IMG/VR virus record: IMGVR_UViG_3300021368_001024
Location: 1 to 23,814 of that record
Origin: a virus
Length of the DNA stretch: 23,814 nucleotides
Reading direction: 5' to 3' (one strand)
Below, piece by piece: positions 992 to 18,800 of this stretch. The translations under genes were made by a program, and so were the position numbers. The stretch's first letter is position 1. Every line of letters starts with the position of its first letter. The notes beneath the pieces were generated by a model. The model was not told the origin of the DNA and ran no database searches. It saw only the letters and a list, made by a program, of their open reading frames with translations.

Positions 992-3900
992 ATGACAAGT
1001 CCGAACTCAGGGTTAACATGTAATCCGTCTTTTCAGGAAGTAAAGAAGACGGTGACATTCACATGTTCGAGTACAGTACCAGATAGCAGGACTGGTGGGT
1101 ATTCAACTCGATATAATGATGAGGAATATGAGTATGTTGATACTGTATACAATGAGCATGTTCCTACATTAACGAATGGTACATTAAGGGAGGCGTGGGA
1201 TAATAGTAATGATCCTAGGTATCAACAGTACAATGTAGATACTGGGCAACCGATTTTCGAGAATTATTGTAGGACTGATGCTGGTAGTGATGAAGGATAT
1301 TTCCAACACTTATGGGAATTTCCTACAACGCATACATCATCTAGGGATGTTTTAGTTAAGTACGAACCAGTATATGAAGAAACAACGACTGGCAGACCAA
1401 CTACAGATAGAACAGTAGCAACACCAGAATCTCTTGCAGCACAAGAAGGTGGATGTGTTCGCAAAGTTACAGTTACCAATAATTTTACACTTGGCAAGGT
1501 ATCTACTAATCTAAGTGGGTTACCAAGTGGAGATGATGCTTCATTCATCCAGTTAGTGGGTACAGACGACGTTGCAATCATCTTTACCTATACAAGTGAC
1601 ACACGAACTGTATTGCAGGTTGGAGACGTTGTTAACGGTCATACAGTGACCGATGTGGTTAACTTTGCAGATACAAAGGCAGATCGTAAGATTGTTCACC
1701 GTGTATTAGGTGATAATAAACTGAAATTGAATAATATCAAAGGTATTCAAGTTGGTGATAATGTTACTGGATATGGTAATACCAAAATTCCTGCAGGCAC
1801 TACAATTAAATCAATTAATACCAGTGAAAAAACTGTTAAATTAAATTTTAGTGGGGATATTGATGGTCTTAATCGTACCAATCGTAATAAGATCAGAACT
1901 ATTCTAGTACAGGATGCAGCACAAAATCAAATTCCAGATACAAACTATTGTTGGGCGAAGTTAGGATCTAGCACTTCTGTAGGTGTTAAGAACATTTCCT
2001 TCAAAGTTGAAGGTCCAGGCATTCATTATATGGACTTTGTAAGCACTACAACATCAGCTGGTGCATGGACAAATGAGAAAATTTTCAATGAAGGTGGTAA
2101 TGCTATCTTCAAAAGTGGTAGTACTAAGTCAAAAACTGTAGATTTTGATGGCGGATCTCTTGTTATCAAGGCAGAACCTGTCAATGATGGTGGTGAATGG
2201 GATTCAAGATGGTATATTGAGTCATTTACTGGTACTTTACCTAAAGTTGGTACTGCATTCCAGACAAAATTTGATGGTGGTAAGGATAAAGTAACAATTC
2301 ATTTTAAAGTTACTGGTACTGCACCTACTGTAACTGCAGCATCAGGACCTTTTGCTAAAGAAGCAGCCTATACTGGGTCTATAAGTGGTGCTCAAATTAG
2401 AGTAAAAGCAGGTTATGGGATTATTGACCGTGCAGCTGCAGTTGGTATTTTCATCAGTAAGAGAAAGGACGTACTGTATACACCTATTTTTAAGAAACAA
2501 ACCGATCTGATTCCACAAGAAGTTAAGGAATTGTCTGTTAAATTCCCTGGTTTAGGTACTTTAGAGGAATTTAGAGAGGTTGGTATTGAAAATCCTGTAG
2601 TTGATACTAACTGCGACCCATTCTTGAATCCTCAAGTCACCATTCCTAGTGGAACTGGTACTCAAAATAACAACATTCAACTCACCTCATCAAATAATTC
2701 CGTAGTTTTACAAGCAATTGAGGACAAAATTGATCAAATTTCGTCAACTAGTGATGTTGATGAGATGGTAGAGGAGATTGAGAAGATTTTTAAGGAACAA
2801 AATCCCGATCCTACCGTAGATCAGAGTGTTTTAGACAATCTTAGTAGCAATTTAAGGAAAATCAACAAGGCAGAAGACAAAGTTGCTAAGTCAGAAAAGA
2901 AATTTAAGAAGAAATTTGGGGATGCCGATAGATCCGTATCTCAAGATACCGCATCCAACAAGTTAATCAACGATATTCTCAACAAAATTGGTGAAATTCC
3001 CGATGATTTGGGTGTTTTGCTTCCAGCTGATGTTCCACAGACAATCGATACCGTAGATGGGGAGAATGAATCCGATTTTAACCTCGTAAAAAACGCATAT
3101 CGCGACCTTCCCGCGACTCAGGACCGCATTCAGTTCATTGTTGAAGATCTTTCAATCAATGATGACGAATCTTACCTCGATTATGGTAAAAGTTCACTCC
3201 GAACTACGATTACCTTTGATGTTATTCCGCGTTGGTTACTCGGAACACCTACAATTGGTGATGAAATCTCCGATGAAGCGGAATTGGTGATTTCTGGTAC
3301 GGCATTAGGTGGTGCTTCACCCGCAAATGACCTTTATTTGTTGGTCAGGGACGTAAATAACTCTGGTGCAATCCAAACTTTTGAAACTTTTGGTGGTTCT
3401 GTACCGCAAATGAAGTATACCAATCAATCTGGTACTTCTACTGCGGTTGGAACAAGAGCATCTTTCAATATTACTTCCGCAGGTGGTAATTACACCGCAA
3501 CAATCAATACAAATACAACTGGTTATTCCGTAAATGATATTATCATCATCAAAGGTGGTGTATTAGGTGGTTCCAATGATACTAATGACTGTCTTATCCA
3601 AATTACGAGTCTAACAGGTGGTGGGGAGATTAATCAATTCAGTGTAACAGGTACATCGACTGGTAGTGCTACTTTTAACAATAGAAGTCATGTAATTGAA
3701 GAAGCAGCATTTGACGTTAACGTTGAATGGAGTAATACAGATGCAACTACTGATGATATTTACGTTCCAGTGATCAATGATGACAATGCTGGTTCTGGTT
3801 ATCGCGTAAATGACACAATTTCTATTTCTGGTGCGAATTTGGGTGGTGGAACAAATAATGATTGTCTTATCACTGTAACTGAAGTCGATCCTGAGGGTGG

Positions 3901-5008
3901 TTTGATTGATTATACCACATCAACAGCGGAAAGACCACAAACTTTATATGCTAACATCTCCGCAAGCTATGCAACCAACACTGGTAGTTCAGTTGGCACT
4001 GGTGCAACGTTTAATGTACTTAAAGGTGAAAATGCTGCGGGATCACCAACATATTTTGTTTCTCTAAACAATGCAGGAACTAATTATAACAAAATTGTAG
4101 TTCCTACTGGAATAACAGTTGATGTTGTTGATAGAAAAGAAGGTATTTTGCAGATCAATAACGGAGATCTTAATGCATATCCGTCAAACTTTACGGTAAC
4201 TTTTGGTGTTTCCGCACCTTCACCGTTAGTAGTTGGTACTAGTTACAAAGCATCTAAGATATCCGACACTAAGTTCTTTGTATATACAGAACAAAACTTT
4301 GGCACTACAAATAAAGCTGGTACAAGAATTCCTCCCCTTATTACAAGGATCAGATTGTCTGAATCACTTACAGGTATTAGTGGTGTTGCCTTTGGTACGT
4401 TTGGTGTTGCACAGACAGTAAATTACTTGACTGATGGTGGAACTCAGTATGTTGATACCATTGATGTTGCGGCAACTGGTGAAGTTTACCCTGATAGAGT
4501 ATGGAGAGGTCTTGGTTATGAATATCAAGGTGAATGGATTAAGGAATATGAGTTTAATTTGGTCACTACATCTGAAAATATTGCTAAATCTTCGTTCAAT
4601 GAAGGAAATCCAATTCAGTCCAAACCTACAACCGCAAAACTAACTAAAAAATTAAAACCAAAAGCAGATAAGATTGAAGTTGATGATACATCATTGTTCT
4701 TGTCATCTGGTTATCTAATGATTCCTAAGTGGATTCGTAAAACTGAAAATTATCTTGAACTTGGTGTGGAGGGTGTGAATAAAATTGTAAATGATAGAAA
4801 TCACTATTACTACGATGGTGAAGAGATTATCTATTATTCTTCAAAGACAGCAACATCTTTTGAAGGTATTGAAAGATCTCAGTTTAATACCAGTTATTTG
4901 TTTGAAACATCACCAGAACCTTTCGCCAAAAACGGTGGAGTGGTAAATAGTTATCAAAAGGGCTATTCTGTTCAACAGTACTGGCCTTATCAACCGAAGG
5001 AGGAATAA
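992..5008 (+). CDS. Large modular virion structural protein, baseplate-associated
   Basis: A 1338-residue protein rich in Gly, Asn, Thr, Ser and Asp, typical of beta-rich phage surface proteins; I cannot assign a T4 number. Visible modules: a segment at about 236-292 of the form VGDxVxGxG...IPAGTxIxxI, also present in the gp7-like protein; a charged, probably coiled-coil part at about 571-650 (AIEDKIDQI, VEEIEKIF, KKFKKKF); glycine-rich repeats at about 769-797, 834-880 and 923-972 sharing GYxVNDxIxIxG..LGG..NDCLIxVT; and a C-terminal unit at about 1226-1300 (VDDTSLF...EEIIYYSSKT...GIERS) matching units in the gp7-like protein. The start ATG lacks a clear Shine-Dalgarno sequence. It sits directly before the PAAR-like gene, two bases away, which suggests a hub, spike or baseplate-periphery role. 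It does not resemble T4 gp5 or lysozyme. Confidence 0.7.
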   Translation: MTSPNSGLTCNPSFQEVKKTVTFTCSSTVPDSRTGGYSTRYNDEEYEYVDTVYNEHVPTLTNGTLREAWDNSNDPRYQQYNVDTGQPIFENYCRTDAGSDEGYFQHLWEFPTTHTSSRDVLVKYEPVYEETTTGRPTTDRTVATPESLAAQEGGCVRKVTVTNNFTLGKVSTNLSGLPSGDDASFIQLVGTDDVAIIFTYTSDTRTVLQVGDVVNGHTVTDVVNFADTKADRKIVHRVLGDNKLKLNNIKGIQVGDNVTGYGNTKIPAGTTIKSINTSEKTVKLNFSGDIDGLNRTNRNKIRTILVQDAAQNQIPDTNYCWAKLGSSTSVGVKNISFKVEGPGIHYMDFVSTTTSAGAWTNEKIFNEGGNAIFKSGSTKSKTVDFDGGSLVIKAEPVNDGGEWDSRWYIESFTGTLPKVGTAFQTKFDGGKDKVTIHFKVTGTAPTVTAASGPFAKEAAYTGSISGAQIRVKAGYGIIDRAAAVGIFISKRKDVLYTPIFKKQTDLIPQEVKELSVKFPGLGTLEEFREVGIENPVVDTNCDPFLNPQVTIPSGTGTQNNNIQLTSSNNSVVLQAIEDKIDQISSTSDVDEMVEEIEKIFKEQNPDPTVDQSVLDNLSSNLRKINKAEDKVAKSEKKFKKKFGDADRSVSQDTASNKLINDILNKIGEIPDDLGVLLPADVPQTIDTVDGENESDFNLVKNAYRDLPATQDRIQFIVEDLSINDDESYLDYGKSSLRTTITFDVIPRWLLGTPTIGDEISDEAELVISGTALGGASPANDLYLLVRDVNNSGAIQTFETFGGSVPQMKYTNQSGTSTAVGTRASFNITSAGGNYTATINTNTTGYSVNDIIIIKGGVLGGSNDTNDCLIQITSLTGGGEINQFSVTGTSTGSATFNNRSHVIEEAAFDVNVEWSNTDATTDDIYVPVINDDNAGSGYRVNDTISISGANLGGGTNNDCLITVTEVDPEGGLIDYTTSTAERPQTLYANISASYATNTGSSVGTGATFNVLKGENAAGSPTYFVSLNNAGTNYNKIVVPTGITVDVVDRKEGILQINNGDLNAYPSNFTVTFGVSAPSPLVVGTSYKASKISDTKFFVYTEQNFGTTNKAGTRIPPLITRIRLSESLTGISGVAFGTFGVAQTVNYLTDGGTQYVDTIDVAATGEVYPDRVWRGLGYEYQGEWIKEYEFNLVTTSENIAKSSFNEGNPIQSKPTTAKLTKKLKPKADKIEVDDTSLFLSSGYLMIPKWIRKTENYLELGVEGVNKIVNDRNHYYYDGEEIIYYSSKTATSFEGIERSQFNTSYLFETSPEPFAKNGGVVNSYQKGYSVQQYWPYQPKEE
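4997..5003 (+). promoter_or_regulatory. Strong ribosome binding site for the PAAR-like gene
   Basis: AAGGAGG lies inside the last codons of the preceding gene, six bases before the ATG at 5010. It is the best Shine-Dalgarno match noted in the window and fixes the start of the PAAR-like protein. Confidence 0.8.
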
Positions 5009-5350: not shown

Positions 5351-5390
5351 TTGGCAGAGTTATTATAGAGACTTTTTGACACTCTGTCAA
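5351..5390. promoter_or_regulatory. Overlapping inverted repeats, possible operator
   Basis: TTGGCAGAGT (5351-5360) is complementary to ACTCTGTCAA (5381-5390) with only one G-T wobble. TTGACA (5376-5381) also forms a perfect 6-bp palindrome with TGTCAA (5385-5390) around CTC. The inner palindrome contains the -35 box of the promoter at 5376-5404, so a bound protein would block polymerase. As RNA, the outer pair could form a 10-bp stem with a 20-base loop after the PAAR-like gene. No T-run follows the stem. Confidence 0.45.
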
Positions 5391-5404
5391 GCCTGTGGTA
5401 TAAT
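5376..5404 (+). promoter_or_regulatory. Near-perfect sigma70 promoter for the small-gene block
   Basis: TTGACA at 5376-5381 and TATAAT at 5399-5404 are both perfect consensus hexamers with a 17-base spacer, and TGG directly before TATAAT adds an extended -10. The first gene of the block starts 23 bases downstream. T4-like phages use such host-type promoters for early transcription, so this block can probably be expressed before the late structural genes around it. Confidence 0.85.
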
Positions 5405-5427: not shown

Positions 5428-5571
5428 ATGGCACGATCCAAAAACCTTAGTGGTGGTTCTTTTGTAGAAGCCAAACCCAAAAAGACCCGCCAAGGCAGTG
5501 GTCAGCATACCAAGTATGCATCTACCTCTCGAAACAATGCTAAAAAACGTTATCGAGGTCAAGGTAAGTAA
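5428..5571 (+). CDS. Small highly basic conserved-type protein, 47 aa
   Basis: Reads MARSKNLSGGSFVEAKP, then a Lys/Arg-rich stretch (KKTRQGSGQHTKY, NNAKKRYRGQGK) and TAA. There are almost no acidic residues, so binding to nucleic acid or to an acidic protein is plausible. I recall similar small basic proteins in T4-like cyanophages but cannot verify this here. It is the first gene after the sigma70 promoter. Its stop TAA shares its last base with the next gene's ATG (TAATG), which suggests translational coupling. A leader AAGAGG (5406-5411) lies rather far upstream to act as a Shine-Dalgarno sequence. Confidence 0.75.
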   Translation: MARSKNLSGGSFVEAKPKKTRQGSGQHTKYASTSRNNAKKRYRGQGK

Positions 5572-5768
5572 TGAAAATACAACTGTGGTACTCTCAGGGA
5601 ATGAGTCAGTGGAGATGGTCTCTCACCGACGATAAAAACAACAATATCCAAGAGTCAGGACAAAGACCTGATCTCAGAGACGCAATGAATGATATTGCTA
5701 CCACAGTTGAATATATACTAGACACGAATTATTGTGATGAAAAAGGAAAAACTCAAAGCACAAGTTAA
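5571..5768 (+). CDS. Small hypothetical protein, 65 aa
   Basis: Starts MKIQLWYSQGMSQWRWSLTDD, with three Trp in the first 16 residues, followed by a likely helix (LRDAMNDIATTVEYILDTN, about 35-53). It looks like a small soluble alpha/beta protein of unknown role. It overlaps the previous stop by one base and the next gene by 32 bases, so it is probably translated in a coupled series. I do not know its function. The N-terminal pattern resembles a family of short proteins that I recall from marine T4-like phages. Confidence 0.7.
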   Translation: MKIQLWYSQGMSQWRWSLTDDKNNNIQESGQRPDLRDAMNDIATTVEYILDTNYCDEKGKTQSTS

Positions 5769-5910
5769 GTCCAGATTCTATTACTATTTCTGGGGTCTAG
5801 CTACCCTCTCTGTGGTCCTAGGACAGATTTATGTTGGTGCTGGGTATCGTTACATGGCTGAGAGTGTAAACACCCTTACATACAGTCTTTCAAGAGCATT
5901 ACGTCGTTAA
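5737..5910 (+). CDS. Small single-pass membrane protein, 57 aa
   Basis: The frame starts at an ATG inside the end of the previous gene and reads MKKEKLKAQVKSRF, then an aromatic and hydrophobic stretch YYYFWGLATLSVVLGQIYVG (about 15-34) that looks like one membrane helix, then an amphipathic tail ending SLSRALRR. The positively charged N-terminus suggests that the N-terminus is inside. It ends immediately before the next ATG (5911) with no gap, which supports it being a real gene in the block. Possible roles include host membrane modification or a holin-like accessory, but nothing in the sequence decides between them. Confidence 0.75.
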   Translation: MKKEKLKAQVKSRFYYYFWGLATLSVVLGQIYVGAGYRYMAESVNTLTYSLSRALRR

Positions 5911-6096
5911 ATGAATGAAAAAAGAGTGAAAACAACACCACAAAATGTTCAAGAATCAAATGAAGCACTTTTTCGTGCTTCAATGAACCTTCCAAAAGCT
6001 GCAGAACACTGTGGCATGACTCAAAAAGAGATGAAACTTACTTTTTGGGAATTTTTGAAATATAATGAACCAGATTATGAACTACCCAGTCCATAA
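5911..6096 (+). CDS. Small hypothetical protein, helix-turn-helix-like, 61 aa
   Basis: It begins on the base after the preceding stop codon. The middle part LPKAAEHCGMTQKEMKLTFWEFL (about 28-50) has the alternation of a short helix, a turn with CGMT, and a second helix, reminiscent of small helix-turn-helix proteins. The match is weak. The end KYNEPDYELPSP is acidic and aromatic. A role in transcription control is possible but unproved. It overlaps the SET-domain gene by 32 bases in another frame. Confidence 0.65.
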   Translation: MNEKRVKTTPQNVQESNEALFRASMNLPKAAEHCGMTQKEMKLTFWEFLKYNEPDYELPSP

Positions 6097-6469
6097 ATTA
6101 TATTCTACAATTTTATACACTTATCTTGCTCCTAGTAAAGTCTGTGAGGGGATAGGTGTTTTTTCTTTAGTGAATATTCCGAAAGATACATGTATATTCA
6201 CTCCATCAAAGCAAGAATATGTTTTGTGGAATGATGTTGACCCTCGTTTGAAATCTCAAATAGAAAAACTGACTTATTGCGACGAAGATGGGTTTTGGAT
6301 TGATAGTGATTTGGACAAATTAGGTCCTCAGTACTATATCAACCACTCACATACACCAAATGTTGCATATAATAAAGACACTGGTAAACTTTATGCTATT
6401 AACGACATTCCAGCCGGCGTAGAACTTACTGATTACTATTTTCCAGGAGAAAGAGATTGGCTTACTTAA
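6065..6469 (+). CDS. SET-domain protein, putative lysine methyltransferase
   Basis: A 134-residue protein that fits a compact SET domain. Visible motifs are GIGVF (29-33) after a small N-terminal strand, matching the G-x-G cofactor loop; NIPKDTCIF; the hallmark YINHSHTPNV (91-100), matching N-H-S-x-x-P-N, which forms the pseudoknot and binds S-adenosylmethionine; GKLYAINDIPAGVELTDYY (107-125), matching the A-x-x-D-I-x-x-G-x-E-L-x-x-D-Y end with a likely catalytic Tyr at 124 or 125. SET enzymes transfer a methyl group to a protein lysine. The target is unknown; a host or virion protein are both possible. The gene overlaps its neighbours on both sides (32 and 13 bases), so it is part of the small-gene block. 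An internal ATG at 6077 could also be the start. Confidence 0.8.
   Translation: MNQIMNYPVHKLYSTILYTYLAPSKVCEGIGVFSLVNIPKDTCIFTPSKQEYVLWNDVDPRLKSQIEKLTYCDEDGFWIDSDLDKLGPQYYINHSHTPNVAYNKDTGKLYAINDIPAGVELTDYYFPGERDWLT
6445..6450 (+). promoter_or_regulatory. Shine-Dalgarno site deciding a TTG start
   Basis: AGGAGA lies six bases before the TTG at 6457, inside the end of the SET-domain gene. The spacing is ideal, and no ATG is placed to use it, so it supports the TTG as the real start of the 221-residue protein. Confidence 0.65.
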
Positions 6470-7122
6470 ATCACAGCTTACCTGATTGGTCTTGTTACAT
6501 TCGTAATGAATTCTTGTACAATCACAAAAAAGGACATGGTGAAGTCACCAAGGCTGACGTTCATAGTGTTGCTAGTATAGAGAAACGTGTCCCACTATTT
6601 GAAGCATTCCTTGAAAATGGTGTTAACTGGACCAGAAGACCTCTACATGCGTTCTGTTGGGACCCAGAAGCGGAGATAGAACCATTAGAGGACATTATGT
6701 ACTGGGATTGTTTTAGTCCTTATATTGACGTACAGAGACGACACAGACTCGCTGGTCTACAAGCACAATTAATTCGACCTGACGGTAAAAAGGTACTGGG
6801 TGACTATATGTTCACTCTAGATTGGTCTTGGGAAAATAAAGGTGTTCCTGACTTGAACTATTCAGAAACTCCTGAACATAAGTGTGCTCACTTGTTTAAG
6901 GTAGAGACTGGTAATTATTATGCTTATCCTAATAATAGGATTATCTGGTATGATAATGCTTGGACATTCAATCGTATCGAAAAAAATCCTGGATTTGAGA
7001 TTGACACTACTGTTTATAGCGTAGAGAATAAAAGAAAGATTGAAACATCAGATCATTACATGTATGAAATTAAAGACTTAGATAAAGGGGATGGTAATAT
7101 TACTGTCTATGAAAATAAATAA
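6457..7122 (+). CDS. Conserved-type hypothetical protein, 221 aa, TTG start
   Basis: Reads (M)AYLNHSLPDWSCYIRNEF and is rich in Trp, Tyr, Asp and His throughout (WTRRPLHAFCWDPE near 58-71, MYWDCFSPYIDVQRRHRL near 81-98). There are no membrane segments or signal peptide. The fold and function are not recognised. I recall a protein of this type as a recurrent member of T4-like cyanophage structural regions but cannot check it here. The start is TTG with a good Shine-Dalgarno site six bases upstream, and the gene overlaps the SET gene by 13 bases. The aromatic-rich composition could suit a structural or sugar-binding role; this is inference. Confidence 0.75.
   Translation: MAYLNHSLPDWSCYIRNEFLYNHKKGHGEVTKADVHSVASIEKRVPLFEAFLENGVNWTRRPLHAFCWDPEAEIEPLEDIMYWDCFSPYIDVQRRHRLAGLQAQLIRPDGKKVLGDYMFTLDWSWENKGVPDLNYSETPEHKCAHLFKVETGNYYAYPNNRIIWYDNAWTFNRIEKNPGFEIDTTVYSVENKRKIETSDHYMYEIKDLDKGDGNITVYENK
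7114..7121 (+). promoter_or_regulatory. Candidate late promoter box AATAAATA
   Basis: AATAAATA differs by one base from the T4 late consensus TATAAATA and lies 20 bases before the ATG at 7141, upstream of gp25. It overlaps the last codons of the preceding gene, so chance is a real possibility in AT-rich sequence. Confidence 0.3.
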
Positions 7123-7363: not shown

Positions 7364-7813
7364 TTGTCTTTCAGCGTTTCACGATCAACAGCTCCAACAC
7401 AAATAGTTGACAGTGCTCTAGGTAAAACATCCAGAGCTTTTAAGGACATCAGTTTGACGTTCTCTAAAAACCCTGTCACTAAGGACCTTGTTGTACTTAA
7501 AAATGAAGAAGCAATCAAACAAGCAGTAAAGAACTTAGTTCTTACTCAAGTTGGTGAAAGATTCTTTAATCCTTATTTGGGAACCAATACTACATCATAC
7601 TTATTTGAATTATCTACTAGTTTTGCTGAAAATGCTCTAATTCAGGAAATTGAGAGCGTTCTGCAAACAAATGAACCTAGAATCAGTCTGTCCAACATCA
7701 CAGTAGATGCGGATGAAGATATGAATTCTTTTGAATGCTTTATTGAATATTTTATTGTTGGAATTCCCGAAGCATTGCAAACCGTAGATTTTATCCTCGT
7801 AAGAGAAAGTTAA
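7364..7813 (+). CDS. gp25: Baseplate wedge protein gp25
   Basis: A 149-residue match to the gp25/GpW-lysozyme-like wedge family: an N-terminal extension, then LTFSKNPVTKDLVVLKNEEA (about 30-50), LTQVGERFFNPYLGTNTTSYLFE (about 59-82, the R-x-F-x-P-x-x-G core), and a C-terminal beta half (EPRISLSNITVDADED). gp25 joins the gp6-gp7-gp53 wedge and helps start sheath assembly around the tube. T4 gp25 is 132 residues. No ATG fits: the frame begins after TAG at 7346-7348, and the candidate starts are TTG 7364 or ATT 7355 (giving IKALSFSV...). No good Shine-Dalgarno sequence is visible. gp6 starts on the base after its stop codon. Confidence 0.9.
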   Translation: MSFSVSRSTAPTQIVDSALGKTSRAFKDISLTFSKNPVTKDLVVLKNEEAIKQAVKNLVLTQVGERFFNPYLGTNTTSYLFELSTSFAENALIQEIESVLQTNEPRISLSNITVDADEDMNSFECFIEYFIVGIPEALQTVDFILVRES

Positions 7814-9808
7814 ATGGAATTACCAACAGTTGCCGCTTTAGAATTTGAGCAATTAAGAGCGTCGATTAAAAACTATATCAAAACAAAGTCTACCTTCACG
7901 GACTATGATTTTGAAGGTTCCAACCTTTCAATGTTGGTTGATATCCTCGCGTACAATACTTTGTACACGACGTACAACCTTAACATGGCGTCTAACGAGT
8001 TGAATCTCGATACGGCGGTACTTCGTGATAATATTGTATCGCACGCCAAGAGACTAGGATATAATCCAAATTCTTATACCTCATCCAAGGTACAGGCGGA
8101 CATTACTGTAACTGGACTAGCAGCGTTACAGGTTGGTAGGATTGGTCTTAAGTCTGGTCCAGTTTTATCTACAACATTCCAAGGAAAAAATTATACTTTT
8201 GTAGCAAGAGACGCTCTTAATCTTACTGTCACTGGTAATACAGCAGTTTTTAGAGATGTAGAACTATATGAAGGTACTACTTTTAGTATTAGATATACAG
8301 TAGACACTTCAAATGAAAATCAAAGATTTATTATTCCAAATACCTATATTGATTCTGATAGTGTAAAGGTATCAGTCAAAGCTGATTCTACATCTACAAC
8401 TTCCACTAACTATGCTAGAAAAAATACGATTGTTGGTGTAAGTCCATCGGATACTGTTTTCTTTGTAGAAGAAATTCAAGATCAGCAGTACGAAATTGTA
8501 TTTGGTGATGATGTAATTGGTAGAAAATTACAGAATGGTGAAATTGTCACTATCCAGTACATTATTACAGCTGGCGGTGAACTTAATAACGTAAAACAGG
8601 ATTCTCTAAAATTTATTGGTACAGTTGAATATGTTGACTCGAATAATGTTACTGGAAGGGTAGCTCTAAGTGATATTTCTTTTAGTCTTAACACTGAATC
8701 TTCTTTTGGTGGTTCTAACTTTGAAGATATTGCATCTATTAAATTTAGAGCACCTAGATATTTTGCAGCACAAGAAAGAGCGGTGACAATCAGTGATTAT
8801 GAATCGTTGATTATGCAAATTTACGGTAATTCTGATTTAGTCAAGGTTGTTGGTGGAGAACAGTTAAGTCCACCTGAATACGGAAAAGTTTTTATTACTA
8901 TTAAACCAAAAGTTGGTAGTGTAGTTAGTGATACTGAAAAAGATAGAATTGTAAGGGATCTTAGAAGTTTTATTGTTGGATCTGTTACTCCTGTAATTAG
9001 AGATCCTAAAAAATATAGTATTAAAGTTCGTCCACAACTTACTTACAATAAAAATAAAACTAGAAAGAGTCCAGCTACACTTAAAAAACTTGTTAGAGAT
9101 ATTGTCGTAAAATACGAGGCCACTGATCTATTCAAGAATTTTGGTGGTAAGTATTCAAATTCTTCTATTATTGCCGATATTCAAAATATTGATAACTCGA
9201 TTATTTCCTCTAATGTTAAATTAAGAGTATGTGTTGAAATTGATATAGATGTCAATAATAGAATCGAAACAAAATATGAAGGTTCTTTCTTTACATCTGT
9301 AAAATCTAAGTTAGAAAGTAAATATGCTATTGTAAGTGATTTCTTCTGTTATCCAGGATACAAAGATCCAGTTTTCATTGGTACACCTTCTTTTGGTGAG
9401 AATAATTGTGAAGTTGATGGTAATTTGTATCTGATTGATATTAATGGAAACATTTTAGGTGTTGTTGGTTCTATCAATTATGAGACTGGAGAGTTCAGTT
9501 TCTCCGTGGCATCTTGTTCCGAAGAACCAATAAATATTTGTGCGATACCTGATGATCCTAACATTGATCTTGATGATGAGACATATCCTACTATTGAGAT
9601 TGTCGATGTAGAAATTGGTGATCCTGATGATGGTGACGATCAAGATCTATCTCCAGAAGATGAATTACCAGTACCTGATGTTGGTGATGCAACAGGAGAT
9701 CCTGATGCTGGTGACGGCGATACAACAGATCCAGTCACTGATGATCCAAATAATATTATTACAATTAACGACTTTACGCCAGAATCTGATCCTAATAAGT
9801 GCTCATGA
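7814..9808 (+). CDS. gp6: Baseplate wedge protein gp6
   Basis: 664 residues, almost the length of T4 gp6 (660). The N-terminal part (about 34-83: FEGSNLSMLVDILAYNTLYT..., NLNMASNELNLDTAVLRDNI, AKRLGYNP) is the typical gp6/baseplate-J-like start. The middle (APRYFAAQERAVTISDYESL, about 312-331) is the family's conserved core. gp6 dimers form the inner ring that holds the six wedges together. Residues from about 577 onward form an unusually acidic tail (repeated DPD, DDGDD, GDGD, TDDP). Codon use near the start (7900-8050) is richer in C and G than the rest. It abuts gp25 and overlaps the next gene by the four bases ATGA. Confidence 0.93.
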   Translation: MELPTVAALEFEQLRASIKNYIKTKSTFTDYDFEGSNLSMLVDILAYNTLYTTYNLNMASNELNLDTAVLRDNIVSHAKRLGYNPNSYTSSKVQADITVTGLAALQVGRIGLKSGPVLSTTFQGKNYTFVARDALNLTVTGNTAVFRDVELYEGTTFSIRYTVDTSNENQRFIIPNTYIDSDSVKVSVKADSTSTTSTNYARKNTIVGVSPSDTVFFVEEIQDQQYEIVFGDDVIGRKLQNGEIVTIQYIITAGGELNNVKQDSLKFIGTVEYVDSNNVTGRVALSDISFSLNTESSFGGSNFEDIASIKFRAPRYFAAQERAVTISDYESLIMQIYGNSDLVKVVGGEQLSPPEYGKVFITIKPKVGSVVSDTEKDRIVRDLRSFIVGSVTPVIRDPKKYSIKVRPQLTYNKNKTRKSPATLKKLVRDIVVKYEATDLFKNFGGKYSNSSIIADIQNIDNSIISSNVKLRVCVEIDIDVNNRIETKYEGSFFTSVKSKLESKYAIVSDFFCYPGYKDPVFIGTPSFGENNCEVDGNLYLIDINGNILGVVGSINYETGEFSFSVASCSEEPINICAIPDDPNIDLDDETYPTIEIVDVEIGDPDDGDDQDLSPEDELPVPDVGDATGDPDAGDGDTTDPVTDDPNNIITINDFTPESDPNKCS

Positions 9809-12800
9809 AAAATCTAAGGGATAAAACTGTAGATCTATCGGTTTTAATCGAGAATCAATTCCCTCAATTTGTGAGGGAAGATGCTTCAACGTTCATAGAA
9901 TTTATTAAGTCTTATTATCAGTCTCTGGAGTTAAAAAACCAGCCTCTTGACATTGCCAAGAATCTAATTGATTATTATAATGTTTCTCATTTCAGGAAAC
10001 ATGAACTGGTAGAGAAAACTCAACTATCAAGTGATGTAAATCTCACTGACACGACTATTAGTGTAGATGATACTACAGGTTTCCCAGAAAAGGGATATCT
10101 GAAAATTAATGATGAAATCATTTATTATGGATCTAAAACTGATACTACATTTAATAGTTGTATCAGAGGAACTTCTGCACTTGTTTTAACTAGCATTCCT
10201 CTGTCTGAAATTTTACTTGAAAATAGTATTGCTGATACTCACTTTATTGATGATGATGTAGCTAATATTGCTTTTGATTATACCAATGAATTTCTGCGTA
10301 GAATTAAATCTGAAATTGCGATTGGTATTCCTGAAAATCTTGTAGATGAACTAGACATTTCTAGCTTCTTGTCTAAAGTCAAGTCTTTTTACGGGTCTAA
10401 GGGTAGTTTAAATTCTAACAAAATTCTTTTTAGAATTCTGTTTAATGATAAGAAATTTAGATTCAAATTAGCAGATAGAGGAACTGGTGCAACTATTAAG
10501 ATCATCAACTTTGATGGTTCTATTGGTAATGCTCAGATTACTGATACTGGAACTGGTTATGATAACAGAGTAGATGGAAATAATAATCTCAAACATCCAC
10601 CAATTATTGAAATTTTTGGTAGTGGTCAGGGTCAACAAATTGCTAACAAAACTGCTGTTGTTGATGTAACTTCTATTAATGCAAGTGGTGGTATTCCACT
10701 TGGTTCTACAATTGACCCTGCTTATAATGGTATTACTATTACTGATGCTGGTTCAAATTATGTCGGACCAATTAGAGGTGTAATTAGAGAAAGAGATTAC
10801 GGCGAAGAAGAACTGGTAATTTCCACTAATGGAAGTGGAGTTGTTGAAAGTTGGGATTTTAACACTGGAGAACTAACTTTAACGAATACGATTGGATTTT
10901 TCACCAACAACGAAGAACTGACATCCCAGTCAGGTGAGAAAGCAAATGGATCTATCAAATCTTTTGAGATTATTCCTCAGGATCCTGAAATTGAATTTCC
11001 TAAAGATTATCTCTTTAGACCATCTGAATCTAATTTCAGAGGTAAGAAATTAGCACGACTAGAGATTACAGAAGGATCTTTAGAAGAAGATATTAATGGT
11101 GTAATTAATCCACCACAACTTTTGTCCATCGTGCAAGATGATGACACTGTTTTTGGTGTAAAATCTGTACAGATTGAATCTGGCGAAATCCTGAAAGTAG
11201 ACAATATTGGATTACCAACATATGAAGTTGATATTGAAATCAATGAAGATTTCAATAGAATTTACTTACCAGCATCTACACAGTTAACTCATCCATACAC
11301 TAATACTGATACTGTAGTTACAGTTGATGATGCTACTGGATTCCCAGTAACTAATGGTCAGATTTATATTGATGGTCTTATCATTGAGTATAAAGAAAGA
11401 ACCGTTAATCAATTTCTTGGATGTACTCCATTACCATCTGGCAGTAAGATTGTAAATACTGAAGTTATCTCGTATGGTAGATATAGAACCAGAAGAGAAT
11501 ATGAACAGAGTGAATATGTAGAGATCGGTCAAGAAAGATACTACGGTGATAATCTTTATAGATGTAATACAGAAGGTGAAACTGCAGCTACTGGTTTTCC
11601 AACACATACATTCGGTATTAAAAAGATTGGTAAGATTCAATGGGAATACATTGGTGCTAGTAAAGTAGATTATTTTGTTGATTGTATTGTTGGTGATCCA
11701 GAAATTACTGCAACTGGTGAACAAGGTGAGCTTGAAATTGTTGTTGACAGTGCCAAAAAGTTGAGTATTGGTCAACTTGCAGTTGGAACTGGTATTGCTG
11801 ATGGTGCAAAAATCAGAACTATTGTAGGTAAAACTGTTACTCTTTCTCTTCCAAATACATCTTTGGTTGATGGTGCAGTCAATTTCTCTAGAGCTAGAGG
11901 TAGAATTGTTGGATTGGTCGGTGAAGTAGAAATTGAATCTGCGGGTGCTCTGTTTAGTAAACAGAAGTATGAACTTGACGATAAGACTTATAATGATTAC
12001 GAAGGAATTGAGTATTCTTCTTGGAATGTAAACAGTGATCACACTTTAGATGCTGATAAAGATTATGTTGGTGTTGGTGGTAGATATGCATTCAGAAACA
12101 ATGTACTAAATCATGTTTATGCAGCGTCTTCTGGTATTCCAGGATATCAGTTTGATGGAAGTACAAATGCTAAAAATAGAGTTCTATCAAATACTTTTGA
12201 TGGATATACAAATGCATTTACTCTTAATGGTCTTGGTTCTTCATTAAATGAAGACGATCTTTATGTGTTCAGGAATGCAGTTCTTCAAGATTCTGCTACT
12301 GACTATGATATTGTCAACAATGTCATCAGTTTTACTAATGTACCTCTGACTCAAGAAACGATCTATCTGAGATATTTTAGTACTGCAAGTCAGGCTACAA
12401 AACTTCAGTTTACTCTTTCTTCGACTGATACTATTGTTTTAACCACATCATCTACAATTGATCTTTCAACAGATCATTTGTTTGTATTCTTGAATGGTGT
12501 TTTACAGATTGATGGGTATACTTATAACGATACTACAAAGAGTTTTACTTTCACTGGACAAACTATTACGGCTACAGATGACATTATGGTCTTCTGGGTG
12601 CAACAAGCACAACAACTTGACCCTATTACATCTACGTCTTCTCTAACTTACACCTTACAGGATGGTGGTAGTAATTATGCTTCTGCAACCACCGAAAGTG
12701 TGTTTGTAGCAATTAATGGTGTTGTACAACAACCAACAGTATCTTATACTATTTCTGGATCTACACTAACATTCAGTGAAGTAAATTCTGGAAAAACTAT

Positions 12801-15800
12801 TACAGTTATTGACTGTGGTAATGCATTACTTTCTGGTACTATTTCTACTCTTGCTGGTATTAATCAAGATAGAAATAATTACAAACTTCAGAAATTACTT
12901 AAGAGAATTCCATATCCTGCAAGTATTCTGAATAAGAATATTCTTAGAACCTCTAAGTCTCTTTCTCCTGTAAAAACGGATAAAGCAATTGGTATTACTG
13001 TAGATGGTATTCAATATCAAACTGTCAGTGGTAATACTGTACCTTATGGTGCCGTAAATACCCTCACCATTTCTAATGGTGGTGTATATCAAATTCCATA
13101 TACATCAACATACGCTTTTGATAAGACTGGATATCCAAAAGCCATTCTGAAAAAGAATGGTTCTGAAACTGCCGATATTAATGTAACTGAGACTGTATTT
13201 GAAATTGCAGGTGGTATTGAAAAGGTAGACATTAATAATTTTGTACCTGCAAATCTAACAAACCTTCAAGGTTTTTCTACAAAACCAAAAATTCAGGTTA
13301 TTAACAATAATCCAGTAGTAAATACGGTTCAGAAAAATCCAGACGGATTTAAGGAAGCTGTAATTGATGTAGAATTCAAAAATGGTAATATTACCAGTTT
13401 TGTTGTTGTAGAGAAGGGTTATGGATATACTGAATCACCAACTATTAGAGTTATTGGTGGTGGTAAACTGACTTCTTATGATATCCCATTTGTTAACACT
13501 TCTAATGGTGATATCATTGTTACAATGTCTGGTCCTCTGATTTCTTCTAAGAGTGCATCTTCTGCTATCACTCTTGCAACTCAATTAGGTGCTAGTTTTG
13601 CTTACGATCCTTCTGTAGAAATTAATTCTGGATCTGGTGCTGAATTACAAGCTGTAGTTGCGAACGGTAGTGTTGTAGCAGTTCAAATTCTGAATGGTGG
13701 TCAAAATTATTTCAATGAACCAAATATTGTTCTAAGTGGTATGGGTAAAGATGCCGTACTAAGAGCAGTTGTTTCTGGTGGTCAAATTACTAGTGTGACT
13801 ATTGTTAATGCTGGTTCTGGTTATGTAATTCCTCCAGTTGTTCAGGTTACAGTTGGTGATTCCAATGCACTAGTCGAATCTACTATTAACAGATGGACTT
13901 TTAACATTGCTAATAGATTTATCACTGGTATTGATGAGTTTGGTGGATATGTATTTGATGAACAAGTAGGATATAATAAAAAAGTTACCTCCTTTACTAG
14001 TAACACTTTAACACTAGAGAATGTTACTAGTCTTGTCGTTGGTATGGAGGCAATTCATCCAGAACTCCCTGTTGGGACGTTTGTTGCTGGAATTAACAGT
14101 GGAACTAAAGTTGTATCTCTTTCTAATGGTGGATTGACTACAGTTGCTAATAATGCTCTAAACAATGCTTTAGTTACTTTTGTTCAGGGTGATGACAGAG
14201 TGAGAGGTGCATTGAAAGTTGCTGAAGTTGTACCTTCTAACTTCCCTAAATCTAGATTAAAATATCAATATCTTCAGATGACAAATACGTCTAAGTTTGA
14301 GACGTATTATGGTATTACTAGTTCTACCCACTCCAAAGTTGTTGGTTGGTCTTATGACGGACATCCAATCTACTGTAAGTATGGTTATACGACAGCATTA
14401 GATAAAACATCTGGTATTAGTGAACAAACATCTTCCTGGAGATTATCTGGTAGTAGGTTAAATGGACCATCAGTTAGTGATTATCCTCTCGGATCATTTA
14501 TTGAAGACTATGAATATGTAAAGGGTCTTGGTACTCTTGATGAGTTTAATGGCAGATTCTGTGTAACTCCAGAGTTTCCTGATGGTGCTTATTGTTATTT
14601 CATGGTGGATGTATTCCCTCATGTTATCGGTGTTAAATACTTCTCTGATCCAGATGTCTATAATACTTGTCCAAATAGAGATAATGATTTAGTTCCAGCA
14701 GCATTTGCTAGAGTTAATGATGCAGATAACGCTCAATATCCAGAAGAAGTTAAGAATGTTTATAAAACCATTCTAACCACAGACTCTGCATCTGTTGGTG
14801 AAGTTGAAACGGTAATTATCGAAAAGCCTGGTGATAATTATAAAGTTGGTGATAGTTTAGTATTCAACAATGACGATACCGCTGGTTCTGGTGCTATTGC
14901 ATATGTAAGTTCTCTTGACACTCCACCAGTATTAAATTACACAGTCGATACTACAAAGAAAGAAATTGAATTTACATTTACTGGTAATCATCTACTTTCT
15001 AACTCAGATATTATTGAGATTGAATATAGAAAAAATTTAGTACCAACTGAAATTAATCTGAGTGCTATTGGAACTGTTCCGACAGTTGTTAATAATAAAC
15101 AGGTATTCCCAGTAACTTTAGAAAGTCATAAGGTTTACAAGTTAAAGTTTGCTGGTGCCACAGATTTCAATCTCTCATTTGATATTTTAAACTTCAATCC
15201 ATTCTTCCAAAGAGACTCGGTTGTTACCAATAGTTCTGTTGAGATTGATCCTTCCAAGATTCCTAGTATTGTCTATATCCATACACCAACATCAATTTAT
15301 GAGTTAAAAGTAGAACAAGCTGAAATTATTGGTAGATACGAAGTTCTTGAGTCTCAAGGTACTCAATTCAAGATTAAAACAGAAGCAACTGTAGTTGATA
15401 TTCCACAAATTGATTTCTCTATTAGATCTAGGGGTGCTACTGGACCAATTAAAACAGTCAATGTTGTGAGAGGTGGTGAGGGATACCAAATCCTACCAGA
15501 AATTACTGATGTAACTAGTGATTCTGGTACTGGCGCTGTTTTACTTGCCAACTCCAAATCTATTGGTAAACTGAACAGAATTAAATATATCACTTTTGGT
15601 GATCAGTTCTATGGTTCTAGAACTGTAAGAAATTATCTGAATCTTCCAATCACAGTTAGAGTAAAAGCAAACTTTGAGATTGCATCCACTAAGATTACAA
15701 ATAGTGGTCAGGGATATGATCTAAATCCAGTTATCAGAACAAATGGATCTGAAACAATTGCAAAATATAAAGCAAGATATAGTTCTGGTGAAATTGTTGA

Positions 15801-18800
15801 TTTACAAGTCATAGACGGTGGTAGTGGATTTGATACTGCTCCTACGATTACTGTAGTAAGTCAAGACGGTGGTAGTGGTGCTGTAATCGTTCCTACGATG
15901 CGTAGAAGAACTTTAGATCTTCAAGACACAGTAACACTTAAGAATAAGTCTGCCGGTGCAAAAATTCTATCCTGTGATGCAAAATCTTCAACGATCGAAC
16001 TTTTAGTCACATCTGGTAAGTTTGAAGTTAACGATATCATTGTTTCCTCTGATGGAAGAGATTATGGAACTATCGTTGAAGTTAATAGTGCTCGTGCATA
16101 TTCCAAGTCAAATTCTTTCGGTAATATTCCTGAATCATTCCTTGGAACTGTTGGATTTATCAGCGATGACTTCCAGAAAGTAGAAGATAGTATTTACTAT
16201 CAAGATTTCTCTTATTCTTTAACTAACGAGAGAAACACCCGCGAGTGGAGATCTGAGGTCAACGAAAATACTCACCCTGCAGGTTTTAAACTGTTTGGTA
16301 AACATAGAATTCACAGTAGAAAGTCTCTGATTGGTAGATCTCAGAATTTGGTTAGAAGTGCTGTTAGTTTCAAAACCAGCATTCAGAGTCTGTTGGACTT
16401 GAGTGTAGAAACTCCAAAGTGTAACAAACAATATATTTGGTTTGATAATTTACCATCTCCAAATCCATATCAAATCAACGATTTAGTATTCGGTTCTCAG
16501 ACGGAACACATCGGTAGAGTTATTGAAGCCGGTGAAGGTTATATTGTTGTACTTCTATTTGACGATGAAATTGTCATCAATGAATATGTAATTAACTTGA
16601 TTAGAAACATTCGTACTTCTTATGTTTCTACTACTAGTAAAACTATCCTGTCTGTAAATGGTATCATTCAGTCTCCTGGTGTTTCATATACGGTTTCTGC
16701 TGATAATATTCTGCCATTATTCCCAATTTACCCAGGAGATGAGTTAACATCTCTCTTCCTGACAAATAACTTTGAAACCTTACAAGGATCTGGTGTCAAT
16801 AACAACAACCAGATTAATCTAAGTAAAGGTGGTATTCAGTATACAGCATCTAATGCAAATAATCTTTTAGTATCACTAAACGGTGTTATTCAGAATCATG
16901 CTGACTATGAGTTGATTAATAGTGGTGCAACTCTTAGATTCCCTGGTACAACTGTACAGGGAGACACTACATTTGTTATTGATCATCCATCATTACAACC
17001 ACTTTCAATTACAGGATCTGCTGGTACAACCTTTGATATTGGTGTAACACCATCTTCAAATTGTCAGTTATTGATCTTCTTTGTTGGTGTCAATCAAACT
17101 CATCTGACAACCGACTACACAATCAGTGGTTCTACAATTACATTCCCTACATCTGTTGATCCTTCTGAAATCTTTGGTTGGTATATTAATGAAACCGTAG
17201 AGTGTGAAAAACCTACAATTACTGGTCTGAATCAACACCTTGCTAGAGCAAAAACTCTAGTTTGTAATCAAGAGAAGAATGTAACACTGAAAATTGAGTC
17301 CAATACGGTTAAGAAACCAAACGGATTCTTTGAACTGGATAAGGAAACCATTGATGGCACCTTGTTTGTCGATGGTACGACAGCACATGGTTTCGGTACT
17401 AAGTTTAAGTATTCCAATCCAGAGTTCTCTTCCAGTCATGTAGAGGTTATCAATGACATCAGTTCTCAGTTTGATGGTTCTACCACAACCTTCAATCTAA
17501 AGATTAACCAAGACGATGACTACACTCCATGGGATGGTGAAAACTCTCTCCTAGTGGAGACTTCTGGTACATATATGACAAAGAGTCAATATGGTGTTTC
17601 GGGAACTCAAATTACATTTGTAACTGCACCTGCTTCTGGTACTCAAATGTCTATCAGAGATTTCAAGAGTGCATATGTTGCAAATGATAGTGTTAAGAAG
17701 GGCGCCGAACTAGATCAGTTCAATGTATTCAATGGTTCTAGAGCAACATTTAACACATCTGATGATGGTGTTCCTTCTACATCGTCAAATAATACTGATG
17801 TATTCCATGTCAAGAATGGTGTTCTTGTAAGACCAGACATTCATTTGAATGCTGATGATTCTAGAACTAACGTTCAACTACAGACAGTATCTAACAATAA
17901 GATTACATTTACAACTCCTCCAGTTCTCGCTGACAGTATTAATATGTTGTCTTTCAATAGACAACTTGTTCCAAACAATCATAGAAACTGGGTATATGAT
18001 AGAAATGAATTCTTTGATGGTGTTAGAAGAGGGTTTACACTACTCCACGACAACACCAGCACTGGTGGTTTAAAGTGCGAAGAACTTAGAGGTGAGGAAC
18101 CAAGTGAAGAATCTTTAGTTGTAGTTAGAAATGGTGTATATCAGTATCCTTCTATTGACTATGATCTAGTCATAGTAAATGATGTTAATGGTATTAATCA
18201 ACTAACAAATACTACTCATAGAATCGTATTTACAACTCCAACTCCACCTACGGCGACGGAAGATGTATTCATCCTCTTTAATAAGAATACTGCAAACTTC
18301 GTTGATAGAACTGATGAATTAACACAAACTTCTTCTACAGTTCTTTCATACACGACTGCAATTGCTAGTCATGCAACTAAAGTGCCTTTTGTATATGTTG
18401 ATGGTGTTTATCAGGATCAAAATTCCTACACTTGGGACGGTGCTGCAAATACACTGACTTTCTCTGGTACAAATCTACCAACAATTGCAACTGATAAAGT
18501 AGAATTCCATGCTAAGACTGCTGAATTACGTCCAGCGCATGTATTTGGAGACATCATCAATGCATGGTTACTTGTACTACAAAGAGGTGGTACAACCGTT
18601 AAGATTAGCACAGTAAACAACACATTTACTGTTGATCAAAGATCTGGTTCTACCACAATCACTGGTACTAATGTAGTTAATATTCCACAGAGATCTGGTA
18701 CTCTTACAATCGCATCTCAGTTCTATCTGATTACGCTTCTCAATCTAAATGCTAGTGTAATGCATGACGATCCAGCAAATACTTTTGTTGCATTTGGTGG

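Follow-up and report, generated by a model that had tools for sequence, protein, structure and literature searches.

A minimal SET-domain protein, probably an early lysine methyltransferase, as accessory cargo in T4-like cyanophages

What does a SET enzyme do in a cyanophage, whose host to our knowledge has no histones? As a class, SET proteins methylate lysines, and they have been studied almost wholly as chromatin modifiers; here the fold and the chemistry are known, and the host and the genomic setting are unusual. The window (the whole stretch of DNA analysed, a 23,814-base virus record) represents part of the genome of a marine Kyanoviridae phage (a T4-like cyanophage), and around the ORF at issue it holds gp25, gp6, a giant 3,687-aa ORF and gp8 of the T4-like cyanophage kind. 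The ORF at issue is, taken as a whole, best explained as an accessory, early-type SET protein lysine methyltransferase, a reading to which we assign a probability of about 0.75. The locus contains:

5376-5404, plus strand: sigma-70-type promoter, TTGACA-17-TATAAT with TG extension (12/12 match, extended -10), heading the run from phrog_516 to phrog_3704
5428-5571, plus strand: phrog_516, a 47-aa Lys/Arg-rich protein and candidate substrate (PHROG E 1.9e-24; 444 phage records)
5571-5768, plus strand: small ORF, phrog_2818 (PHROG match)
5734-5910, plus strand: small ORF, phrog_2000 (PHROG match)
5911-6096, plus strand: small ORF, phrog_1920 (PHROG match), whose 3' end overlaps the SET start
6065-6469, plus strand: SET-domain protein, family A (Pfam PF00856, E 1.1e-10; AF2 model matches SET structures)
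6149-6157, plus strand: GxG loop, residues 29-31, predicted S-adenosylmethionine-binding motif (invariant in 69/69 aligned)
6341-6361, plus strand: NHSHTPN pseudoknot motif, residues 93-99 (N93, H94 and N99 invariant in 72/72)
6422-6439, plus strand: ELTDYY, residues 120-125, with putative catalytic Tyr Y125 (E120, L121 and Y125 invariant in 72/72)
6457-7122, plus strand: phrog_3704, called "PurM" or "ferredoxin" in records (PHROG E 3.7e-53; TTG start; 13-nt overlap with SET)
7115-7121, plus strand: ATAAATA, a late-promoter motif ahead of the gp25 unit (motif match)
7364-7813, plus strand: gp25, baseplate wedge subunit (Pfam GPW_gp25, E 1.7e-10)
7814-9808, plus strand: gp6, baseplate wedge subunit (Pfam E 7.2e-17; phrog_219 E 3.4e-151)

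The preliminary description had read 6065-6469 as a SET-domain methyltransferase, an identity confirmed by profile, motifs and predicted fold alike. The ORF encodes 134 aa, a minimal single SET domain; its start is uncertain (ATG 6065 or ATG 6077), because homology begins near residue 12. A search against SET profiles, proposed at the outset as a check, matched PF00856 at 42.3 bits, nearly twice the cut-off of 22.4, over residues 29-125 and profile positions 1-104 of 105, and divergent relatives likewise match Pfam SET; PHROGs and NCBIfam profile searches with the window protein gave no SET match, Pfam alone doing so. A profile built from 20 relatives retrieved KMT2-type SET domains among PDB sequences (E 3.6e-5). 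A structure prediction for the protein bears out the fold: the moderately confident AF2 model (pLDDT 69.6, pTM 0.57) matches the MLL, vSET and SMYD3 SET structures in Foldseek (best E 1.6e-5), and VIA-align superposes 69 of its residues on vSET (3kma) at 1.8 A with Z 10.5. The match in sequence and fold is well beyond chance.

Chlorovirus vSET (PBCV-1; 3kma chain of 105 residues, the Z 10.5 match above) is likewise a virus-encoded, stand-alone minimal SET domain; it comes from a virus of a eukaryotic alga, methylates histone H3 Lys27 and is packaged in the virion (PMC7019647). The SET domains of KMT2/MLL, SUV420H and SMYD, its best sequence and fold matches, belong to eukaryotic multi-domain proteins; the window ORF stops a few residues past the SET core and, unlike them, has no cysteine-rich post-SET segment.

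Two of the three motifs first proposed are present as described: the G-x-G loop reads EGIG (residues 28-31) and NHSxxPN reads NHSHTPN. The third, given as E-L-x-x-D-Y, was misread; the window has E-L-T-D-Y-Y. Relatives carry ELLNTY, ELLYRY, ELTMYY or ELLDYY at this site, and because all these variants keep the Tyr at +5 from the Glu, Y125 occupies the catalytic Tyr position; Y124 is kept in 62 of the 72 aligned sequences. S95 and P98 of NHSxxPN are retained in 63/72; this S and P are mostly missing from the divergent members (44-53% identity), which keep the N, H and N of the motif as well as the E, L and Tyr of the third one. The loss of both residues in about one-eighth of family-A members would suit a catalytically dead relic or a protein that only binds, an alternative that we regard as very unlikely, given that the cofactor loop, N-H, E-L and catalytic Tyr are invariant, that the SET domain is kept in two families, and that the median dN/dS of the gene is 0.25 over 1092 pairs, indicating purifying selection. 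Purifying selection together with invariant active-site residues argues instead for a predicted active enzyme. We set aside a conserved Trp close to the C-terminal end as evidence of a cofactor lid, since its codon overlaps the phrog_3704 start and is common to two frames.

The gene order is promoter, phrog_516, three small ORFs, SET, phrog_3704, ATAAATA, a small ORF, gp25 and gp6. Two claims about this setting hold in part: the adjoining gp25, gp6 and gp8 do form a structural cluster, but the SET gene immediately precedes this cluster, occupying an accessory slot, rather than standing in its middle; and the sigma-70-type promoter is a full sequence match, but sits about 660 nt 5' of SET, at the head of a six-gene run. 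Such a promoter, apart from the late ATAAATA motif, fits early expression; the late promoter of S-PM2 has been reported as NATAAATA (PMC2984593). A considerable share of the SET-A relatives have a match of at least 11/12 at a comparable place (about -50 to -75), ahead of phrog_516; other relatives lack such a match. At 5376-5390 the -35 box forms one half of a perfect palindrome, TTGACACTCTGTCAA, through which the minus strand gains a 12/12 promoter match of its own at 5390-5362; an operator or a divergent promoter is possible there. Upstream of the slot, 992-5008 is a 1,338-aa ORF with a partial phrog_26996 match and otherwise without clear family; 9799-20862 is the single 3,687-aa ORF between gp6 and gp8, at the place annotated as baseplate wedge initiator in relatives.

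The SET gene is not the isolated phage oddity that it first appeared to be, as SET recurs in cyanophages beside phrog_516 and gp25, and it does so in two families. The second, phrog_28741 (family B; Pfam E 5e-10 to 2e-11), is like family A a phage SET occupying the slot between phrog_516 and the baseplate gene gp25 in most of its loci, but is about 100 aa long, with a shorter middle region and without a phrog_3704 partner. Among deduplicated loci with both flanks, most of them retrieved via SET or phrog_3704 and the census biased to that extent, 78 carry SET-A with phrog_3704, 61 carry SET-B and 20 phrog_3704 alone; the rest hold ferredoxin (Fer2, 4.4e-24) with phrog_3704 (5 loci), ferredoxin with SET-B (2), an ATE_C-like protein (PF04377, 1.1e-7) with phrog_3704 (2), a 2OG-Fe(II) oxygenase (1), or other content or none (3). 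Isolates outside the SET group have an empty slot or ORFs of no assigned function. Examples of the alternative cargo are:

L109:3714-4001: 2Fe-2S ferredoxin in the slot before phrog_3704/gp25
L136:3515-4000: ATE_C-like (arginyl-tRNA-protein transferase) in the slot before phrog_3704/gp25
L066:4144-4773: 2OG-Fe(II) oxygenase in the slot of S-H9-1

The site before gp25 therefore takes interchangeable accessory genes; several of these resemble protein-modifying enzymes, and the SET gene is one piece of this cargo. That it is accessory follows also from phages with phrog_3704 up to 98% identical and no SET, in which phrog_516 and phrog_3704 lie close together. In the mechanism that we propose, the SET gene would have been inserted between phrog_516 and phrog_3704/gp25, would be transcribed with phrog_516 from the sigma-70-type promoter ahead of the late baseplate unit, would be translationally coupled to phrog_3704, and would most likely methylate lysines of an early-infection protein using S-adenosylmethionine.

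Position alone cannot name the substrate, because the slot likewise takes ferredoxin. A host protein, for instance of the transcription, translation or photosynthesis machinery, is a serious possibility at somewhat less than even odds, the position then being a convenient slot for early cargo. The unrelated cargo (ferredoxin, ATE_C-like, 2OG-Fe(II) oxygenase) and the sigma-70 promoter are in keeping with such a takeover factor, as is the methylation of host histone H3 by chlorovirus vSET (PMC7019647), although the promoter is not detected in every relative and late genes often lie directly 3' of family B. The early methylation of a host protein initially suggested thus fits the operon promoter in its timing, while nothing points to the ribosomal or RNA polymerase targets mentioned with it.

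The best single named candidate, weakly supported and on balance doubtful, is the neighbouring Lys-rich, tail-like phrog_516, a short basic protein that lies near SET in most loci and has two lysines invariant with or without SET. We had considered it a sure substrate by adjacency, a claim weakened by the ferredoxin, ATE_C-like and 2OG-Fe(II) oxygenase genes in the same slot. Most of its 444 phage records have no detected SET, so phrog_516 does not need methylation, and among the lysines of phrog_516 and of phrog_3704 none covaries with the presence of SET in a diagnostic way.

As a guess, phrog_3704 or a baseplate protein would rank after these two. For a virion protein, the other target first put forward, no link was shown. 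That gp25, gp6 or the giant initiator, as a protein of the virion or of its assembly, is modified by SET in late assembly would accord with the position of both families just before gp25 in most loci and with the packaging of vSET by PBCV-1 (PMC7019647); yet the window SET has its own sigma-70 promoter, the late-promoter motif falls between SET and gp25, and most phrog_516-bearing Kyanoviridae records have no detected SET, which makes this alternative improbable.

Of 71 distinct family-A sequences, 69 have a SET gene that ends exactly 13 nt into phrog_3704; one of the remaining two has a 4-nt overlap and the other none. When SET is present, phrog_3704 starts at TTG, or at an ATG inside SET codons; in SET-less loci it starts at ATG (24/24). 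The overlap and the slot may have been inherited from one insertion. Records name phrog_3704 "PurM", "phosphoribosylaminoimidazole synthetase" or "ferredoxin"; for the window, S-SSM5 and SynMITS9220M01 copies, no Pfam or NCBIfam PurM/AIRS match and no ferredoxin profile match was obtained. This naming may lie behind counts of cyanophage purM.

That phrog_3704 acts as a Tudor-like reader is speculation and only a lead. The top ten PDB matches of its AF2 model (pLDDT 70.4) in Foldseek are Tudor domains of SETDB1 and Spindlin, with PHF19, PHF1, 53BP1 and UHRF1 Tudors recurring lower; E values exceed 1e-3 throughout (8.5e-3, weak, to SETDB1). VIA gives Z 5.1 against the SETDB1 Tudor (59 residues, 1.8 A) and Z 4.2 against that of PHF19 (51/52 residues, 1.5 A, 20% identity). 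These matches and the fixed overlap would allow a pair in which SET marks a lysine of phrog_516 or a host protein and a Tudor-like barrel of phrog_3704 binds the mark. We think such a pair distinctly improbable: E >1e-3 and Z <6 are in the range of unrelated small barrels, non-Tudor propellers score an equal or better Z, the phrog_3704 copy of the window has no evident complete aromatic cage (as judged from strands and conservation), and phrog_3704 is common without SET and was not found in family-B slots. The fuller analogue of a histone-tail code, with SET writer, Tudor-like phrog_3704 reader and Lys-rich, tail-like phrog_516 substrate side by side, is a long shot.

The phage SET family is real, well conserved and apparently unstudied; a literature search covering few subscription journals found no relevant paper on cyanophage or phage SET proteins or on family-A homologues. 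In IMG/VR, family A was found at 59 loci by single-sequence search and 79 by alignment search, with further divergent loci reached through phrog_3704, and it occurs in 7 phage records; related records are Kyanoviridae or unclassified Synechococcus phages. Homologues with the same neighbours as in the window occur in Sf-CH1b (SfCH1b_81), RN05-S (XYR95748.1), S-B05 (QCW22836.1) and SynMITS9220M01; records of family-A homologues read "SET domain-containing protein-lysine N-methyltransferase", "methyltransferase" or hypothetical. Family B is in more contigs than A (251 stretches with the P-RSM6 query and 21 loci with AG-345-P14, partly overlapping), and its members include P-RSM6 CPXG_00131, P-SSM7 PSSM7_204, AG-345-P14 and Pelagibacter phage Kolga gp27. 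With near-duplicates included, 62 of 101 loci have it between phrog_516 and gp25; in a further 15 it precedes gp25, in 5 it adjoins nrdB, and the remaining loci have it elsewhere. Two minimal phage SET families beside a tiny Lys-rich protein would open protein lysine methylation in phage infection to direct testing in cultured Synechococcus and Prochlorococcus phages.

PF00856 matches were found in 10 of 300 sampled Cyanobiaceae genomes and in 32 of 291 from the cyanobacterial phylum; a scan of genome contigs with strict phage patterns found no relative. Family A forms one clade apart from 27 sampled cyanobacterial SET proteins (99/98), with no sampled host SET inside it, in a tree whose sampling of possible donors was confined to cyanobacteria. 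On this sampling, the separate position of family A gives no indication that the gene was recently acquired from the usual host. The tree separates families A and B and does not reject a single phage clade (p-AU 0.23), so that the shared slot reflects either two arrivals or one old insertion. Away from the gp25 slot, a different phage context holds a family-B-like SET with the motif EITVSY, at four near-identical loci (L371:4001-4297). A protein with SET-like stretches (L246:1426-2073) from a picocyanobacterial genome of 1.3 Mb (G221) falls with family B in the grouping; the 13-kb contig that carries it may be a phage contig.
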